Shown in pieces: positions 35,529 through 47,269 of a stretch of 64,000 nt of DNA. The notes below the pieces were generated by a model that searched no databases, was not told the origin of the DNA, and saw nothing but the letters and a program-made list of their open reading frames with translations. Location: the NCBI GenBank assembly GCA_013348845.1, contig CP054675.1, forward strand, positions 1,683,501 to 1,747,500. Reading direction: 5' to 3'. Both the position numbers and the translations under genes were made by a program. The stretch comes from Candidatus Tepidiaquacella proteinivora. GTDB taxonomy: Bacteria > Bacteroidota > Ignavibacteria > Tepidaquicellales > Tepidaquicellaceae. The stretch's first letter is position 1. The number at the start of each line of letters is the position of its first letter.

Positions 35529-35822
35529 ACAAAGCCTGTAGTACCTGCGACGATAAGTTTGTTTGACGGATAAAATAAAACCATATGATATAACTCCAAA
35601 ATTCGTAAAGGAGAGCGAAAAGAAAATTTGAATTTTAAGGATTTTTATTATCCCAAATAAGACTTTTTAAGCAATTTATTTAAAAGTTCCATTTTTATTT
35701 TGAACAATAATGTATATAACCAGAAAAAAATTGATAGATAAATAAAAAAAGAAATATAATTAACTAAATTAAATTAGTAAATACCGTATAAAATTCGCTA
35801 CTTATTTTCCCTTATGAAACTG

Positions 35823-35894
35823 TTTTAGAAAAAAACTCATTTAGGAAAGAACTATTTTAGAAAAGAACCCTTTTAGAAAAAAACTCTTTTAGAT
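35823..35894. repeat. Short tandem repeat, about 16-nt unit, 4.5 copies
   Basis: Units beginning TTTTAGAAAA and ending AACTC lie at 35823-35839, 35840-35854, 35855-35870 and 35871-35886, with a partial one after that. They differ by a few bases and by 1-2 nt in length. The stretch is non-coding, between the transposase remnant and the truncated WD40 gene. A single related copy occurs near 47322. Confidence 0.7.
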
Positions 35895-36149: not shown

Positions 36150-36695
36150 TTAGTCTTTCTGATATTTTTCACCATTAATAATTTTTTTCAGAAGTCCATC
36201 AACATAAAAGTCTTCATAGAAGGCATCAAGGGGATAAATTTCAAGTCCTTTTACCCAGTGGAGATTTTTCATACCGTTTGGTGAGCCGTCGAAATAGCCA
36301 TCCGGAGTTACCACCACCCAGTCATTTTCATCCATAGAAATAAGTGAAGCAAGTTCCTTTCCTGTTTCTATTTCCCAGAGTTTGAGAGTACCATCCCCAC
36401 TACCCGAGAGCGCATATTTCCCGTCGGGGGAAAAAGCTACGGAAAAGACAATATCGCTATGCCCCTGAAAAGTACGGATTTCCTTGCCGGTATTTACATC
36501 CCAGAGTTTGAGGGTTTTATCCAAACTTCCCGAGAGTGCATATTTCCCGTCGGGGGAAAAGGCTACAGAATTGACATTACCGCTATGCCCCATCTGTACT
36601 ACGAGTTCAGGCTTCTGAGAAAAGGAATTTTGGATTTCGAATGAGAGATTCAGAATTGTAAAAAATACAAAACAAATAAAAATTTTTGCTTTCAT
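36150..36695 (-). CDS. Truncated paralogue of the WD40-caspase protein (two WD repeats)
   Basis: A 181-residue protein with the same signal peptide (MKAKIFICFVFFTILNLS) and the same KPELVVQMGH start as the large neighbour. It has only two WD repeats, then the same post-propeller segment (ENDWVVVTPDGYFDGSPNG) and stops just after GEKYQ. The second repeat (SDIVFS, SGDGTLKLWEIETGKE) corresponds to the last repeat of the big gene, so repeats 2-13 are missing, as expected from recombination between near-identical repeats. The Ig-like and caspase domains are absent. Two repeats cannot close a propeller, so it may be non-functional, a decoy or a regulator. Confidence 0.8.
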   Translation of the reverse strand: MKAKIFICFVFFTILNLSFEIQNSFSQKPELVVQMGHSGNVNSVAFSPDGKYALSGSLDKTLKLWDVNTGKEIRTFQGHSDIVFSVAFSPDGKYALSGSGDGTLKLWEIETGKELASLISMDENDWVVVTPDGYFDGSPNGMKNLHWVKGLEIYPLDAFYEDFYVDGLLKKIINGEKYQKD

Positions 36696-37030
36696 AATTA
36701 TTCTTTAATTTTAAAATATTTTTTTTAAAAAAAATTATTATTACAGCTAACCGTATTTCTTTTGATATTTTAATTTTATTATACTTACCTTTATAATTAC
36801 TTATAATCAAACCCTGTAAATATAATTATTGAAAAAATATTTTTAGATACACATCTAATTCAATAAATCGCCCTTCGAATAATTTTTAATTTAGATTTTC
36901 ATAATTTATTTCTATCTGTTTTTTTTTATTATAAAAATTCTTATTAAATAATATGTATTTTATTCTGATCGTTAAAATAAAAAATCTTAAGTTTTCTTTT
37001 TAAATAAACAAATTTATTTTCACATTTTTA
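36696..37030. repeat. Intergenic region with duplicated upstream sequence (copy A)
   Basis: The first about 108 nt upstream of the truncated gene (36696-36803) match the region upstream of the large gene (40178-40284) with only a few differences. A second duplicated block, AATATTTTTAGATAC plus following bases, occurs near 36838-36866 and again near 36041-36076 downstream of the truncated gene. The two WD40 genes and their flanks therefore look like a tandem duplication. Confidence 0.75.
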
Positions 37031-40000
37031 TCATTTACAGAGACCGATTGGAAGTTGTGAAAACTGATGTAATGTAATAAATCTCGGTTTCTGCGCGCTC
37101 GTATTATATTTTTCTACCAGCTCAAGTACTTTCTCGCCCGTATATTCAACAAGTTCATTCAGATATATTAAACCGTCCCGCTTTCCAACATTACCCTTGC
37201 AGTTCAGCCCCTGTAATAAACTGTATGTAAATATTCCATGCTTCAAATCCTTAATTTCTTTTGCAGTCTGGTCTCTGCCGGTTGCAAGAAAAATATATAT
37301 TCCTGTACTTCTTGCAAGTTTATTCTGAATTTCATTATCCGGCTCCCCTTTAAAACTTGCCGCTATATCCGACCAAAATTCTTCGGCATAGCAGGCATCA
37401 ATTATTAACAACTGTTTCTGAGCTTTAATGCTTCTGAACTTCTCACCGAGATCCTTTGAAGACACTGCCGTCATTCTTTTATTTTCACTTGAAGAATTTG
37501 ACATTAAAAGATAAAACTGCTTGACCGTTCCCCAATCAACATCTCCATGCCCGGAATAATAAAATATAAAAACATCTTCCGGTTTTGTTTTTAGTGCTAT
37601 TTCATCAAGTTTCCTAAGTAAGTTATCCCTTGTTACTTCTTTGTCATACATTACATATTTATATGTATTATTATACACCCCTTTTCCTTTTTCCGTTATT
37701 ATACTTACCAGTTCATCAACATCGGATTTGCAATAACTTAAATCATTTATATAATCATAATCATTAATCCCTGCTGCAAATATATAAAGCGACGGCTTGT
37801 CCTCTACTTTGCAGGTGACAATTACAGACTTTGGAAATCTTGATTCATATCCTTGTTTATCTATTGCCTTTGCTACTATCTCGTTTTTCCCTTTTACCAG
37901 ATCTATTTTTAATGTTATTTCATCTGGCAGGGTAATTTTAAAATTTTTGCTTACTTCTTCGATTACCTTACCATTTACAGTTACAATTACACCCTTGATT
38001 GGATTTGTTCCTTTTTCAATACTTATTTTTAATTCTATTTCCTTTGTGTTAAATTCATCGAAGTTTTTTGGGGAAAGGATTTCTACCTCAGGGAATTTAA
38101 ACTCAGAAGCAATTATTATATCAACATTGGTTTGATTTGTTTGATATTTTTCACCTTTTAAAACCTTCGGCAGAAGTCCATCAATATAGAAATTTTCATA
38201 GAAGGCATCAAGGGGATAAATTTCAAGTCCTTTTACCCAGTGGAGATTTTTCATACCGTTTGGTGAGCCGTCGAAATAGCCATCCGGAGTTACTACCATC
38301 CAGCCATTTTCATCCATAGAAATAAGTGAAGCAAGTTCCTTTCCTGTTTCTATTTCCCAGAGTTTGAGAGTACCATCCCCACTACCCGAGAGCGCATATT
38401 TCCCGTTGGGGGAAAATGCTACAGACTGGACAATATCGCTATGTCCCTCAAAAGAACGGATTTCTTTGCCAGTATTTACATCCCAGAGTTTGAGTTCCTT
38501 ATAACTACCCGAGAGTGCATATTTCCCGTCGGGTGAAAAGGCTACGGAATTAACCCAACCGCTATGCCCCTTAAAAGCACGGATTACTTTGCCGGTATTT
38601 ACATCCCAGAGTATGAGCCCTTTATAACTACTCGAGAGCGCATATTTCCCGTCGGGTGAAAAGGCTACGGAAAAGACCCAAATGCTATGCCCCTTAAAAG
38701 AACGAATTTCTTTGCCAGTATTTACATCCCAGAGTTTGAGAGTAAAATCATCACTTCCCGAGAGTGCATATTTCCCGTCGGGGGAAAAGGCTACGGAAAA
38801 GACCCAACTGCTATTCCCCATAAAAGTACGGATTTCTTTGCCGGTATTTACATCCCAGAGTTTGAGAGTACTATCCCTACTTCCCGAGAGCGCATATTTC
38901 CCGTCGGGGGAAAAGGCTACGGAAGTGACATAATCGCTATGCCCCTTAAAAGTACGGATTACTTTGCTTGTGTTTACATCCCAGAGTTTGAGTTCCTTAT
39001 AACTACCCGAGAGTGCATATTTCCCGTCGGGTGAAAAGGCTACGGAACGGACAGCACCGCTATGCCCCTTAAAAGTACGGATTACTTTGCCGGTATTTAC
39101 ATCCCAGAGTATGAGCCCTTTATAACTACTCGAGAGCGCATATTTCCCGTCGGGTGAAAAGGCTACGGAATAGACCCAAATGCTATTCCCCATAAAAGAA
39201 CGGATTTCTTTGCCGGTATTTACATCCCAGAGTTTGAGAGTTTCATCCTCACTACCCGAGAGCGCATATTTCCCGTCGGGGGAAAAGGCCACGGACAAAA
39301 CGTAATGGCTATGCCCCTTAAAAGTACGGATTACTTTGCCAGTATTTACATCCCAGAGTTTGAGAGTACTATCCCCACTACCCGAGAGGGCATATTTCCC
39401 GTCGGGTGAAAAGGCTACGGAATAGACCCAACTGCTATGCCCCATAAAAGAACGGATTTCTTTGCCTGTATTTACATCCCAGAGTTTGAGAGTTTTATCC
39501 CAACTACCCGAGAGCGCATATTTCCCGTCGGGGGAAAAGGCTACGGAATAGACCCAAATGCTATTCCCCATAAAAGAACGGATTTCTTTGCCGGTATTTA
39601 CATCCCAGAGTTTGAGAGTTTTATCAAAACTTCCCGAGAGGGCATATTTCCCATCGGGTGAAAAGGCTACGGAATGGACACTACTGCTATGCCCCTTAAA
39701 AGTACGGATTACTTTGCCTGTATTTACATCCCAGAGTTTGAGAGTACTATCCAAACTTCCCGATAGCGCATATTTCCCGTCGGGTGAAAAGGCTACGGAA
39801 TAGACAAAACTGCTATGCCCTTCAAAAGTGCGGATTACTTTGCCGGTATTTACATCCCAGAGTTTAAGAGTTTCATCCCAACTTCCCGAGAGTGCATATT
39901 TCCCGTCGGGGGAAAATGCTACGGAAGTGACATTACCGCTATGCCCCATAAAAGTACGGATTTCTTTGCCTGTATTTACCTCCCAGAGTTTGAGAGTTTT

Positions 40001-40177
40001 ATCCGAACTTCCCGAGAGCGCATATTTCCCGTCGGGTGAAAAGGCTACGGAATAGACACTACGGGTATGCCCCATCTGTACGACGAGTTCGGGCTTCTGG
40101 GAAAAGGAATTATGTATTCCCAATGACAGATTCAGAATTGTAAAAAATACAAAACAAATAAAAATTTTTCCTTTCAT
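37031..40177 (-). CDS. Exported WD40-repeat caspase-like (C14) protein
   Basis: A 1048-residue protein. Order: signal peptide (1-27, ends NSFSQ); fourteen WD40 repeats of 41-42 residues (35-618) that are almost identical to one another; a conserved post-propeller segment (MVVTPDGYFDGSPNG, about 627-641); an Ig-like beta domain (about 690-785); and a caspase-like domain (about 790-1048) with the catalytic dyad H877 in YYSGHGD and C929 in IIDACYA. Caspase-like peptidases of bacteria cleave after basic residues or act in death and conflict responses; fourteen blades would make two seven-bladed propellers. The signal peptide places it outside the cytoplasm. A truncated paralogue follows. Biological role unknown. 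Confidence 0.88.
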   Translation of the reverse strand: MKGKIFICFVFFTILNLSLGIHNSFSQKPELVVQMGHTRSVYSVAFSPDGKYALSGSSDKTLKLWEVNTGKEIRTFMGHSGNVTSVAFSPDGKYALSGSWDETLKLWDVNTGKVIRTFEGHSSFVYSVAFSPDGKYALSGSLDSTLKLWDVNTGKVIRTFKGHSSSVHSVAFSPDGKYALSGSFDKTLKLWDVNTGKEIRSFMGNSIWVYSVAFSPDGKYALSGSWDKTLKLWDVNTGKEIRSFMGHSSWVYSVAFSPDGKYALSGSGDSTLKLWDVNTGKVIRTFKGHSHYVLSVAFSPDGKYALSGSEDETLKLWDVNTGKEIRSFMGNSIWVYSVAFSPDGKYALSSSYKGLILWDVNTGKVIRTFKGHSGAVRSVAFSPDGKYALSGSYKELKLWDVNTSKVIRTFKGHSDYVTSVAFSPDGKYALSGSRDSTLKLWDVNTGKEIRTFMGNSSWVFSVAFSPDGKYALSGSDDFTLKLWDVNTGKEIRSFKGHSIWVFSVAFSPDGKYALSSSYKGLILWDVNTGKVIRAFKGHSGWVNSVAFSPDGKYALSGSYKELKLWDVNTGKEIRSFEGHSDIVQSVAFSPNGKYALSGSGDGTLKLWEIETGKELASLISMDENGWMVVTPDGYFDGSPNGMKNLHWVKGLEIYPLDAFYENFYIDGLLPKVLKGEKYQTNQTNVDIIIASEFKFPEVEILSPKNFDEFNTKEIELKISIEKGTNPIKGVIVTVNGKVIEEVSKNFKITLPDEITLKIDLVKGKNEIVAKAIDKQGYESRFPKSVIVTCKVEDKPSLYIFAAGINDYDYINDLSYCKSDVDELVSIITEKGKGVYNNTYKYVMYDKEVTRDNLLRKLDEIALKTKPEDVFIFYYSGHGDVDWGTVKQFYLLMSNSSSENKRMTAVSSKDLGEKFRSIKAQKQLLIIDACYAEEFWSDIAASFKGEPDNEIQNKLARSTGIYIFLATGRDQTAKEIKDLKHGIFTYSLLQGLNCKGNVGKRDGLIYLNELVEYTGEKVLELVEKYNTSAQKPRFITLHQFSQLPIGLCK
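38324..40075 (-). repeat. 14 tandem WD40-coding repeats of 123-126 bp
   Basis: Fourteen in-frame units, ten of 126 bp and four of 123 bp, with a nearly invariant core (VAFSPDGKYALSGS and LKLWDVNTGK). Variation falls on few codons: the residues just after GHS/GNS, the residue after the invariant Val, and the two around the Asp before TLKLW. Repeats 8-9 and 12-13 form a matching pair with a distinctive YKG/YKE version, revealing block duplication inside the array. Such DNA repeats recombine easily. Confidence 0.9.
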
Positions 40178-43048: not shown

Positions 43049-43901
43049 CCTTATTTTTTAAGTATAAAAATATTTTGTTTTTGAATAATTAATCTTGTAA
43101 TACTTTATTGAATTATAAATTGTAAAATTATTTAACATCTTTTTGAAATTGTTTTATTTTTTTATATAATAAACAATATGTAATTATTTAAAATAATAAC
43201 AATATTACTCTTAACCCTAATTTTGTAATAGTTAGTACCAATGATAAATGTATAAAGAAAAATAAAAGCATTAATATATCCATAAAAATACTTTGAAACC
43301 GAAGAATAAGTGATATAAACTTTAAATATATAATTTGACATTGTATTTAAACTATTAATATTTGTTGTATTCCAATATTTATAGCATTATCACGTTTAAT
43401 CTTAAAGCAAAAGAATAGAATTATAAGTTGTGTCTGTAACCTTAATTGATTGATTAATATGGATGGTATTATTTTCCTTGTCACCATAATTTCTTAACAT
43501 TTTTTAATAAAATTCTCCCATTTTTAAGAAGAAAAAAAATCTGTATAAAACATTTTCCCCCTTCATTTCCACAAATTATTAAAAATCAATTTTTTATTTT
43601 TCATATTATTATACACTGTACATTTTTCAAAAGAGACTTTTTAAAAACGTTTAATTTTATAATTATCAGGTTTTTTATACATCGGTCTATTGGTTTTTCC
43701 TCTATTATATATATACTGTACATTTAAGAACGACAGAATAAAATACCCTGATTATTATAGTAAAATTTTTGTGGTAAGGAAATAAGGATTTTCTTGTTCA
43801 GGGCTAAAAAAGTCCGGAGTTTATAATTCTAATTTTTATTTAATATAAAAATGAAATAAAATGGTGTGTATATGTAATAAATTTTGTGTTAAAAGGAAAA
43901 A
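43049..43901. other. Long AT-rich intergenic region with a paired TGTACA motif
   Basis: 853 nt without a credible gene. It contains two copies of ATAYACTGTACATTT at 43611-43625 and 43711-43725, exactly 100 nt apart and differing at one base, each around a TGTACA palindrome. A related AATGTACATTT is at 46585-46595 inside the sigma-like gene. The remainder shows only A/T runs. It lies after the end of the Lon-like operon and upstream of the CarboxypepD_reg-like gene. Confidence 0.5.
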
Positions 43902-46040
43902 CTATTCGTAAAAACTTGCTTTCAGGTAATTTTTATTTATAGAGGGGTAATTGACAAATTTATCGCCGTCCCACCAGCGGATTTTGGATTTTAGATTGTT
44001 TAAATAAATTGTTAAATCAGGTAATTGTTTAAAAGTTGTTTCTTTAAGTTTATTATATTTATTCTTAAATTCGTCATTGCAATTAATGTTAATGATATTC
44101 ATATCTTTGTCAAATTCATACATTACAGACTCCCAATTATTATTTGTGTAGTTCTCAACAGACCAGCAGGCAATAGAGTAATCTGAATTCAGCTGGATAT
44201 TTTGAATGTCGTTTCTTTCTCTGCCTGATAAGTCAAACAAGATAGTTTTCGGAAATAAAATGTAATATTTTTCTGTTCCCCTGGCACCAGTACCGAGCGG
44301 GTCAGTATAAGGACTGCTTCCTGAAATATACTCCGGGTCAAAAACTATTAACGCTGCGCATTCCAGAGAATCCCGGTTATTGCAGGCGCCGCAATAAACT
44401 TCTTTTTTACCATCATTATTAGCATCAAAAATTTTTATAACTCTGGGCATTCCTTCATTCCAATATTCAGCTATTAAGTTTCCATAGAAATCTATTGCTC
44501 CGATAATACCCGGGTAAAACTGAGTATTCATTCCCCAAAATAGTATATCATCTCTGTTATCATTATTGCAATCAAGCAAGGAAATGCCCCCCAGATAATA
44601 ATAATAATTACGAATTGGGTCGTTTGGATAATTTAATTTTCTCAGGGGAAGTAAACATGGAAATGCTTTTATTTGTTCATTAGAGCAGTAGATAGTTCTG
44701 CTTTCAGAAGTGTCGGTTTCTCCCCTGAAAATATAAATCAATTCATTATTTCCATCATTGTTAACGTCTGTTAAAAAGCATCTAATCTGGTTGGTGACAT
44801 TTTCGAAATATTGTATCTTATTAAACAAAGGCAAATCTCTTGAATGCCACAGCTCTATTCCCTTTTCATTAAATATACTGTAATGGTTGTCTATGTAACT
44901 GTGGAATGTGGGATTTCGGTCAAGCCTTGGTACTATGAAATCGAAGGTTATAAATATAATCAAAATAATAAAAATGATACTAAGAACTGAATTAATTATA
45001 GTGCTATATCTTTTATATTCCGCTCTTAATTTTTGTATAAACTTTAAGTCAAATCTTTCTACAATTTCAAGATTAGAAAAAACATCCTGAAAATTTTTAA
45101 CAGGTATTAACTTTAATTTTCTGTCAGGGTATTTTAAACTTAATTTTTCCAATTCATCTTTTGCTGAAAAATAGTTTTCTTCTGGTATAACAAATTTTTC
45201 ATAACCAGAGAAAAACACTGCCCTTAATTTTATTAAAAAATATTTATCATCTATTTTAACAACATCTCCGTTTTCATCAATTTCCCCCGTAAAAACACAG
45301 TCGTTCCAGAATTTATAATATTGTTTTTCAAATTCATTTATCAATATTGAATTATATGCTAAACATAGTGCAGCCAAACCGTGAGAATTGCCGGAGTATA
45401 TGTATTCTCTTTTATCAAAAAAGAATGTGAAGTTATAAAAATTACTTTTATTACTTATTGACTGATATTTATTTTTTGCTAATTCAACAATTGATTGCAG
45501 ATTGTTTATAATTTCAGGTTCTTTTAAGTCGATATAATTGGTAAATTCAATTTTATCGAAAGCATCTTTTCTTTCCCTTCCTGAAGAAATTAAATTTAGC
45601 TTTCGGATAATAGCAATTTCCGGAGTTTTACCCGAATGATCATCAAGGGGCTTCTCAATTAACACTACCGGTATTGCATTATCAAGTAACCTCCTGTCAA
45701 ACTTTTTGAAAACCCCCTTCTTTGCTTCTTCCAGAATATCAATCAATATTTCTTCATTTGGAAAGATATTCAAAGAGTTTAATTTTAAAATCAGTATCTG
45801 AAATTCATTTAATGAATCTAATGATAAACCTTCAAAATCTTTGCTTTCAATCAAATGATTTATATAATAAGAAAGGTCTGAAAAGTATGAATTATATTTT
45901 GAAATATCTTCCTCGTTGAGAAGTATTTTTAAAAAATTGAATATTGTATTTAGTTTAAAGCTGTTTGAAGCGGGTAATTTTAAAAGGTCGAGTAAATGTT
46001 GAAAATGAGTTTCAATTTCAATTAATCTGGTGGGCGCCAT
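43902..46040 (-). CDS. Membrane protein: Lon-protease-like domain, one TM helix, FG-GAP-like region
   Basis: A 712-residue protein without signal peptide. The N-terminal 200 residues are helical. Residues about 210-325 resemble the Lon (S16) proteolytic domain: YSGNSHGLAALCLAYNSIL places a Ser (S219) in the G-x-S-x-G position, then FTGEIDENGDV and YEKFVIPEENY follow as in Lon. The catalytic Lys is uncertain (K266 or K271). One membrane helix (about 348-370) leads to an outer part with calcium-loop FG-GAP/VCBS-type motifs (DVNNDGNNE, DCNNDNRDD, DANNDGKKE). I infer a cytosolic protease-like head coupled to a periplasmic sensor. It is the last gene of a three-gene operon. Confidence 0.65.
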   Translation of the reverse strand: MAPTRLIEIETHFQHLLDLLKLPASNSFKLNTIFNFLKILLNEEDISKYNSYFSDLSYYINHLIESKDFEGLSLDSLNEFQILILKLNSLNIFPNEEILIDILEEAKKGVFKKFDRRLLDNAIPVVLIEKPLDDHSGKTPEIAIIRKLNLISSGRERKDAFDKIEFTNYIDLKEPEIINNLQSIVELAKNKYQSISNKSNFYNFTFFFDKREYIYSGNSHGLAALCLAYNSILINEFEKQYYKFWNDCVFTGEIDENGDVVKIDDKYFLIKLRAVFFSGYEKFVIPEENYFSAKDELEKLSLKYPDRKLKLIPVKNFQDVFSNLEIVERFDLKFIQKLRAEYKRYSTIINSVLSIIFIILIIFITFDFIVPRLDRNPTFHSYIDNHYSIFNEKGIELWHSRDLPLFNKIQYFENVTNQIRCFLTDVNNDGNNELIYIFRGETDTSESRTIYCSNEQIKAFPCLLPLRKLNYPNDPIRNYYYYLGGISLLDCNNDNRDDILFWGMNTQFYPGIIGAIDFYGNLIAEYWNEGMPRVIKIFDANNDGKKEVYCGACNNRDSLECAALIVFDPEYISGSSPYTDPLGTGARGTEKYYILFPKTILFDLSGRERNDIQNIQLNSDYSIACWSVENYTNNNWESVMYEFDKDMNIININCNDEFKNKYNKLKETTFKQLPDLTIYLNNLKSKIRWWDGDKFVNYPSINKNYLKASFYE

Positions 46041-46046
46041 TAAATT

Positions 46047-46562
46047 TTAATTTTCTGATCCTAAATTTATATGTATATTAGTATTCAAATCAATATTGAA
46101 ATCATTAACTAAAGCAGTTCCCCTGCTATCAGGAATTATCTCCCTTTGATAGCCGCCGAGATATATTCTAACCTTTGAAAAATCAACAGGAGATTCAGTT
46201 ATTAAATGAATCTTAAATTCATTGGTAGCTTCATTTTTCTGAATCCTTACTATTATAACATTATCAGCAGAAATAAATGACGCAAAATATTTAAACACAT
46301 TTTCTTTTTCTTTTACATTTGCAGCAGCAAGTTTTGGATACCTTAATGAAGATTCAACAGGTTTCATGGGATATAAAGCGATTATCCCCTCGGGTTTACT
46401 TTGCGATTTGAATTCTTTGTGAAATTTTTTTACCCAGTCAATTCTTTCTTTAAATTCCGGATCAACAGTAACCCTTTTTTCAATTTCCTCTTTTAATTCT
46501 TTATCAACTAATAAAGAATTAATAATATATAGATGTAATATTTCATCTGTTATAATTTTCAT
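46047..46562 (-). CDS. Anti-sigma-factor-like small protein
   Basis: A 171-residue protein. The N-terminus (ILHLYIINSLLVDKELKEEI, then a VDPEFKERIDWVKKFHKEF helix) follows the pattern of anti-sigma N-terminal domains (short helix, E-rich helix, third helix) but without zinc-binding His/Cys. The C-terminal part (about 95-171) is beta-rich. No membrane segment. The start overlaps the upstream sigma-like stop by 4 nt and the Lon-like gene starts 6 nt after its stop, so the three are translationally coupled. The assignment is tentative and relies on context and helix pattern. Confidence 0.45.
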   Translation of the reverse strand: MKIITDEILHLYIINSLLVDKELKEEIEKRVTVDPEFKERIDWVKKFHKEFKSQSKPEGIIALYPMKPVESSLRYPKLAAANVKEKENVFKYFASFISADNVIIVRIQKNEATNEFKIHLITESPVDFSKVRIYLGGYQREIIPDSRGTALVNDFNIDLNTNIHINLGSEN

Positions 46563-47269
46563 ATTTCTTTCTCTATATCTATATAATGTACATTTTTTAA
46601 ATCCGAAAGGTAGCTTTCATATCTTTTCTTGTAAAACTCTGATATTACGAAATATAATTTTACCTCACTAAGAACTTTAGCATATTTATTCTGTGAATTA
46701 ATTATTTCGAAAACAGAATTAACTGTTGATGAAACAGAGAATTTTTTAGTGTTTCTGGCAAAAAGATGTTCCAATAGTTCCTCTTCCGGAAATTCTAAGA
46801 AATTTTCCTTTAACCCCTTGATATTGCAGGTATGAATGAAGCAATGAGATTTATAAAGAAACTTTTTGAAATTTTTATTCCTTGATATGTGTAAGAAGAC
46901 TGCCCTTTTTATCTTAAAATATAACTCCCCATATTCTTCTCTTAACTCAACAATTTTCTGATTGGTTCTTGATATTACAAGCGCATATATTTTTGAAGTT
47001 ATAACTTCACTCTTGATAGTTTTTTCCCGAATCAGGTCAGAAAAATTATTATCTATAACTAAATATCTGTTATTTTCAACAATAAAAATATCTGCAATTA
47101 CATCGTACGCTAAATCACTAATTGATAACCCGGATTTTTCAGAAATAAAACCTGAATATTTTGAAATTTTTAAAGTAGTAACAGCAATTTTATGGCAGAA
47201 ATTTATAAGGTCATTAATTCTTTTTGATTTTGCACCCTCTGTTATTACCGACTCAATTATTTCTTTCAT
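46559..47269 (-). CDS. Divergent sigma-factor-like protein
   Basis: A 236-residue, mainly helical, Lys-rich soluble protein. The segment GLSISDLAYDVIADIFI (about 46-62) resembles sigma-70 region 2.1/2.2 (x-DLAQDVFxxxF). A later basic region and a C-terminal helical pair (about 195-230) could be region 4, but there is no clear helix-turn-helix. I would call it sigma-like only because of this and the following anti-sigma-like gene. It is first in the operon, with 279 nt of upstream sequence for regulation. Confidence 0.4.
   Translation of the reverse strand: MKEIIESVITEGAKSKRINDLINFCHKIAVTTLKISKYSGFISEKSGLSISDLAYDVIADIFIVENNRYLVIDNNFSDLIREKTIKSEVITSKIYALVISRTNQKIVELREEYGELYFKIKRAVFLHISRNKNFKKFLYKSHCFIHTCNIKGLKENFLEFPEEELLEHLFARNTKKFSVSSTVNSVFEIINSQNKYAKVLSEVKLYFVISEFYKKRYESYLSDLKNVHYIDIEKEI

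Follow-up and report, generated by a model that had tools for sequence, protein, structure and literature searches.

A candidate Lon-type receptor-protease encoded with sigma-like and anti-sigma-like genes in Ignavibacteria

In the CalpL/CalpT/CalpS system of type III CRISPR (clustered regularly interspaced short palindromic repeats), a Lon domain cuts an anti-sigma factor; CalpT is cleaved into 23 and 10 kDa pieces, and ClpXP has been proposed to act as the last step (PMC11417357, PMC12751052). In the RseA/DegS/RseP and RsgI/RseP systems, an outside signal leads to proteolysis of the anti-sigma factor, a hydrophobic-Ala-Ala end, and ClpXP (PMC10202637, PMC12203970). In the Csx29/Csx30/CASP-sigma system of type III-E CRISPR, a dedicated protease cuts the inhibitor of a sigma factor (PMC10028731). 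Here, a three-gene operon of Candidatus Tepidiaquacella proteinivora (Ignavibacteria) is analyzed, located in a stretch of 64,000 nucleotides (nt) of contig CP054675.1 (positions 1,683,501 to 1,747,500; hereafter, the window). It encodes, in transcription order, a sigma-like protein (gene 1), a predicted stand-alone anti-sigma factor (gene 2), and a Lon-like protein with a membrane helix and an FG-GAP region (gene 3). The gene 3 product is probably a transmembrane receptor-protease, which would control the sigma-like factor through the anti-sigma factor, by a cut at a Leu-Ala-Ala (LAA) motif and subsequent action of ClpXP.

The operon resembles CalpL/CalpT/CalpS in the Lon domain being N-terminal to a sensor domain, in the anti-sigma factor as the (here predicted) substrate, and in the sigma partner. 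The sensor is different; the FG-GAP or LamG domain here lies across a membrane helix, while CalpL has a cytosolic SAVED domain binding cyclic tetra-adenylate (cA4). Unlike CalpS, the sigma-like gene 1 is not recognized as an extracytoplasmic function (ECF) sigma factor. Sequence profiles did not retrieve CalpL. Membership in the CRISPR CalpL system was rejected, because gene 3 matched no SAVED model in Pfam or PADLOC and no CRISPR array-like repeats were found nearby (window positions 30000-64000). The type III Csm1 gene of this genome is ~0.68 Mb from the trio.

The regulated intramembrane proteolysis of RseA and RsgI is resembled by sister loci of the trio that have no Lon domain. In the trio, in contrast, the anti-sigma factor is soluble and the protease itself would be the receptor, and the model needs no site-1/site-2 protease. 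Csx29 differs from gene 3 as a cytosolic CHAT protease activated by target RNA, with no membrane sensor. No description of a membrane Lon receptor arranged with an anti-sigma and a sigma-like gene was found. For the pairing of FG-GAP with an anti-sigma factor, nothing relevant was found in the open-licence literature, where absence is not proof of novelty.

The operon and its Lon-type protein

The three genes are minus-strand open reading frames (ORFs) within window positions 43902-47269. Gene 1 (46559..47269) encodes 236 amino acids (aa), a short form of its family; gene 2 (46047..46562) encodes 171 aa and gene 3 (43902..46040) 712 aa. Genes 1 and 2 overlap by 4 nt and genes 2 and 3 are separated by 6 nt, just as the coupled operon had been described in an earlier note on this DNA. 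When contigs were searched for relatives, a single window protein as query found nothing, while an alignment query worked. A second complete trio is present in the same 2.4 Mb single-contig genome (L003:8939-12315), its Lon protein being 48% identical to gene 3, and sigma/anti-sigma/Lon trios were found repeatedly across Ignavibacteria. Thus, the operon is more than a chance arrangement.

The gene 3 product has a Lon (S16) proteolytic domain, at residues 112-332 (45045..45707, minus strand). The search with the single sequence was weak, with the e-value 0.0048 for spore_lonB and 0.0055 for FG-GAP_3. The profile from 11 relatives matches the Lon proteolytic domain of Archaeoglobus fulgidus (e-value 3.5e-6), and in this alignment the catalytic Ser and Lys fall on S219 and K271. 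Both residues are invariant in 51 of the 51 Lon relatives. The predicted catalytic codons are 45384..45386 for Ser219 and 45228..45230 for Lys271 (both minus strand). Ser219 is found in YSGNSHGL, where the earlier note had placed it by the motif GNSHG. The AlphaFold model of the gene 3 protein has a predicted local distance difference test score (pLDDT) of 84.9. Structure comparison aligned it to the Lon protease domain 6x27 over 180 residues (Z 20.1, root-mean-square deviation (rmsd) 2.7 A), and Foldseek matched Lon proteolytic domains with e-values as low as 5e-9. In the model, the Ser-Lys pair is placed in a well-modelled Lon fold, which agrees with the Lon-type domain claimed before.

The proteolytic fold and the Ser-Lys pair are shared with the Lon (S16) proteases. 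Unlike LonA and LonB, gene 3 has no AAA+ ATPase; its proteolytic domain is followed by a membrane helix and an outside domain. No AAA family matched gene 3, and just ~110 helical residues are N-terminal to the Lon domain. Since the AAA+ module is absent, the Lon domain should be ATP-independent.

A lone strong hydrophobic segment lies between the Lon domain and the FG-GAP part (residues 352-370, 44931..44987, minus strand; mean hydropathy 3.06; helix 346-373 in the model), and the single membrane helix proposed earlier was thereby recovered. Arg and Lys precede this helix. By the positive-inside rule, the Lon domain is therefore predicted in the cytosol and the FG-GAP region, residues 375-650 (44091..44918, minus strand), outside the inner membrane. 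The latter region is beta-rich and has DxNxDG loops. FG-GAP_3 (PF13517) is matched by 8 of 11 Lon members with the best e-value 8.1e-9, while the window copy is below the cut-off (17.7 against 26.9 bits).

The outside region is variable. Some receptors have the same Lon domain and helix followed by immunoglobulin-like and LamG domains in place of the FG-GAP region, and the genes of both partners precede them (L038:6532-9654, L040:6508-9600, L047:5811-8903, and L048:6134-9220); Laminin_G_3 is matched with e-values 5e-17 to 1e-20 in L038, L040, and L047. Longer Lon-free receptors of 856-863 aa, in which the FG-GAP region is apparently doubled, were found behind a sigma-like gene (L101:1-2592, L102:8641-11211). 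Tandem pairs of Lon-FG-GAP genes stand beside one sigma-like gene at L098:400-4582, L152:4979-9234, and L159:4788-9537, as though one sigma factor received input from several sensors. At L034:6360-8560, the Lon gene is broken by a stop into ORFs of 320 and 386 aa, by either decay or an assembly error.

The anti-sigma factor and its Leu-Ala-Ala motif

The window gene 2 protein alone gave no convincing match. Many of its homologues at the same operon position carry HxxxCxxC, and zf-HC2 was found in two members of the gene 2 alignment. Judged from this kinship, gene 2 is a predicted anti-sigma factor without its zinc ligands. The stand-alone anti-sigma proteins are soluble, with no membrane helix. 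The sister architecture lacks the Lon domain and joins the zinc-finger domain straight to a membrane helix followed by the same FG-GAP region (L039, L045, L089, and L090 are examples).

The best-conserved residues of the soluble anti-sigma factors are L78-A79-A80 (codons 46323..46331, minus strand), the proposed site of the Lon cut and of a hidden ClpXP signal. In the alignment of 35 divergent proteins, the top columns are Ala79 and Ala80 (34/35) and Leu78 (31/35), against 29% for the median column. The pattern [LIMFV]AA is present in 34 of the 35, compared with 8.0 expected by shuffling (maximum 15). The motif separates the inhibitory N-terminal part from the C-terminal part and is followed by variable residues. 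The motif is tied to the Lon form; in the Lon-free fusions, it is found in the cytosolic part of 2 of 22 proteins (Fisher p 4e-12 versus the soluble anti-sigma factors). A hydrophobic-Ala-Ala is instead found in or at the membrane helix of 25 of 51 fusions (shuffled mean 9.9, maximum 18), and Lon members have no such enrichment in their helices (5 of 49, shuffled 4.8); all these motif counts are from related sequences and are not independent.

The transfer-messenger RNA (tmRNA) tag of this organism is ADNYALAA, ending in the same LAA. The genome encodes ClpX, ClpP, and an M50 site-2-type protease. In RsgI anti-sigma factors, the RseP cut makes the hydrophobic-Ala-Ala of the helix the new C-terminus, and ClpXP degrades such fragments (PMC12203970). 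Because LAA is the same end as that of the organism's ssrA tag, the ClpXP signal, it may be a ClpXP degron exposed by Lon cleavage.

The proposed mechanism is as follows. In the resting state, the soluble anti-sigma factor would bind and hold the sigma-like protein. A ligand or the envelope state would be sensed by the FG-GAP region beyond the inner membrane, with binding to FG-GAP or LamG as the presumed trigger, and the signal through one helix would activate the cytosolic Lon domain, perhaps through a clustering like that of CalpL. A cut in the anti-sigma factor by the Lon domain, at or next to Leu-Ala-Ala, would then detach the C-terminal part from the inhibitory N-terminal part. The latter would end with -LAA, like the ssrA tag, and its degradation by ClpXP would release the sigma-like protein. 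In the Lon-free fusions, site-2 proteolysis in the helix would expose the hydrophobic-Ala-Ala, and the Lon domain of the trio would do likewise at the soluble LAA.

It is rather unlikely that the same trio acts together with LAA serving the structure or the contact with sigma, the protease cutting elsewhere or only binding, and ClpXP having no part. LAA stands at the start of the conserved C-terminal part, where it could contribute to the fold, and for the CalpT pieces of 23 and 10 kDa the ClpXP step is itself a proposal (PMC11417357, PMC12751052). However, a structural role does not account well for LAA exceeding all other columns in conservation, for the replacement of the motif by the hydrophobic-Ala-Ala in the helix of the fusions, or for its identity with the ssrA end of the organism.

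The sigma-like protein and the linkage of the three genes

Residues 47-62 of gene 1 form a region 2.2-like signature, GLSISDLAYDVIADIF (47084..47131, minus strand). The near-invariant D52, D56, and F62 belong to the pattern GLSxxDLAxDxxAxxF. This pattern is similar to GLSLNDLINEG of RpoD, a stretch that we take to be region 2.2. In a rank test of 32 ORFs with a sigma-70 label in a background of 1214 ORFs, the gene 1 profile of residues 15-135 (numbered on the relative L113) gave an area under the curve (AUC) of 0.953, against a mean of 0.58 and a maximum of 0.743 for 12 column permutations. With residues 20-72 in the same numbering, sigma ORFs take ranks 1-8, though many of the sigma ORFs are near copies of one another and perhaps one or two are mislabelled. 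A relative of 343 aa was modelled instead of the window protein (pLDDT 88.7). VIA-align with this model gave 22 chains at Z >=5, of which 10 are sigma-70 factors (Z 5.0-7.7); this is suggestive only, as the rmsd over two domains is large and the Z range is one where the tool warns of chance. Gene 1 appears to have a weak but specific similarity to sigma-70 region 2. No convincing autoregulatory promoter motif was seen upstream of gene 1 on inspection by eye.

The linkage of the three genes is strongly kept in other genomes, as the check proposed in the earlier note had called for. The sigma > anti-sigma > Lon order on one strand is found in 24 of the 41 Lon members with >2.5 kb upstream, and a gene 1 relative is directly upstream in 45 of 47 anti-sigma fusions. 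Among 391 Ignavibacteria genomes, relatives of genes 1 and 3 (the latter in Lon and Lon-free forms) are present together in 124, while one alone is present in 6 and 16 (odds ratio 316); these linkage and co-occurrence counts are from related genomes and are not independent. A system of a sigma-like gene and a receptor relative is thus widespread in this one class. In a quick tree of the FG-GAP region, only 5 changes between Lon and fusion forms were counted against a shuffled mean of 35, and therefore the switch is rare.

Several points weigh against the receptor-protease reading, besides the kinship of the genomes counted. The anti-sigma assignment proposed earlier holds for the relatives, with HxxxCxxC and zf-HC2, but the window copy has lost these zinc ligands and RVTVDPEFK stands there. 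One of the 35 soluble anti-sigma factors has no LAA. For gene 1, the sigma-like character noted before is retained in the region-2 signal, but no curated sigma family was matched in searches of Pfam, NCBIfam, and PDB sequences. In hhalign comparisons with Ignavibacterial ECF and RpoD profiles, gene 1 scored no better than reversed or shuffled controls, the one exception being a short 'GLSxxDL' match in RpoD. Longer relatives have a C-terminal domain of ~115 aa that is missing from the window protein and its nearest relatives, and in the rank test this domain gave no sequence signal of sigma region 4. Other Lon loci have the genes in a different order, and eight have neither a sigma nor an anti-sigma gene nearby (L037, L041, L147, L149, L150, L151, L153, and L155); the genomes of these eight all encode a gene 1 relative elsewhere. 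A sigma function for gene 1, the cut at LAA, the involvement of ClpXP, the ligand, and the direction of the signal are predictions. The earlier note had named three results that would speak against its own reading, namely no similarity to sigma or anti-sigma factors, no Ser-Lys geometry, and no linkage; each was examined and none came true. Its reading is partly supported; the outside trigger and the anti-sigma cleavage proposed there are still predictions, strengthened by the LAA motif, which that note does not mention.

The gene 1 product may, with low probability, not be a sigma factor at all, but another helical regulator binding DNA or RNA polymerase, or an anti-sigma partner of a distant sigma factor, freed by the same proteolysis. 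The missing curated match and region 4 agree with this, as does the search with Foldseek, in which the model of the gene 1 relative had no significant match. On the other hand, the region-2 signal is specific, many sigma factors are among the structural matches, and gene 1 is constantly placed directly upstream of zinc-finger anti-sigma genes. It is very unlikely that Lon-FG-GAP serves envelope quality control by cutting separate substrates, adjacent to the others by co-regulation and not for anti-sigma cleavage; some Lon members are solitary or in tandem, but the sensor half is common to anti-sigma fusions, co-occurrence with gene 1 is near complete, and LAA tracks the soluble anti-sigma form that accompanies Lon.

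The receptor-protease reading can be extended to a bolder one, proposed here tentatively. It holds that one-pass receptor-proteases form a family standing in for the site-1/site-2 cascade, with FG-GAP or LamG as the sensor, a Lon cut exactly after LAA, and a hidden degron switching divergent sigma factors. If the receptor-protease reading is true, a single protein would carry an outside signal to transcription via proteolysis, with interchangeable outside domains, and the degradation signal of the inhibitor would mimic the ribosome-rescue tag. It would also tie CalpL CRISPR-type protease signalling to ordinary surface sensing, which bears on the origin of such CRISPR modules.

Surroundings of the operon

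A C-terminal sorting motif like that of the type IX secretion system (T9SS) was found in 19 of 130 ORFs within 3 kb downstream of trio or fusion loci (L030:10146-13230 is an example) and in 27 of 761 other ORFs of the same loci (p 5e-6 without correction for kinship). The sigma targets may include secreted surface proteins.

WD40-repeat genes are located 3-8 kb downstream of the trio (window 36150-40177, minus strand); one encodes 1048 aa, the C-terminal half of which is caspase-like by eye. Downstream of the paralogous trio, there is a WD40 fragment (L003:13738-14148) with TPR genes. Sequences like TACTGTACATTT occur three times around the operon, at window positions 43614-43625, 43714-43725, and 46584-46595, compared with 0.62 expected, and 2 of 100 shuffles were as high. 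A short tandem array with a 16-nt period and four copies is present at window positions 35818-35892.

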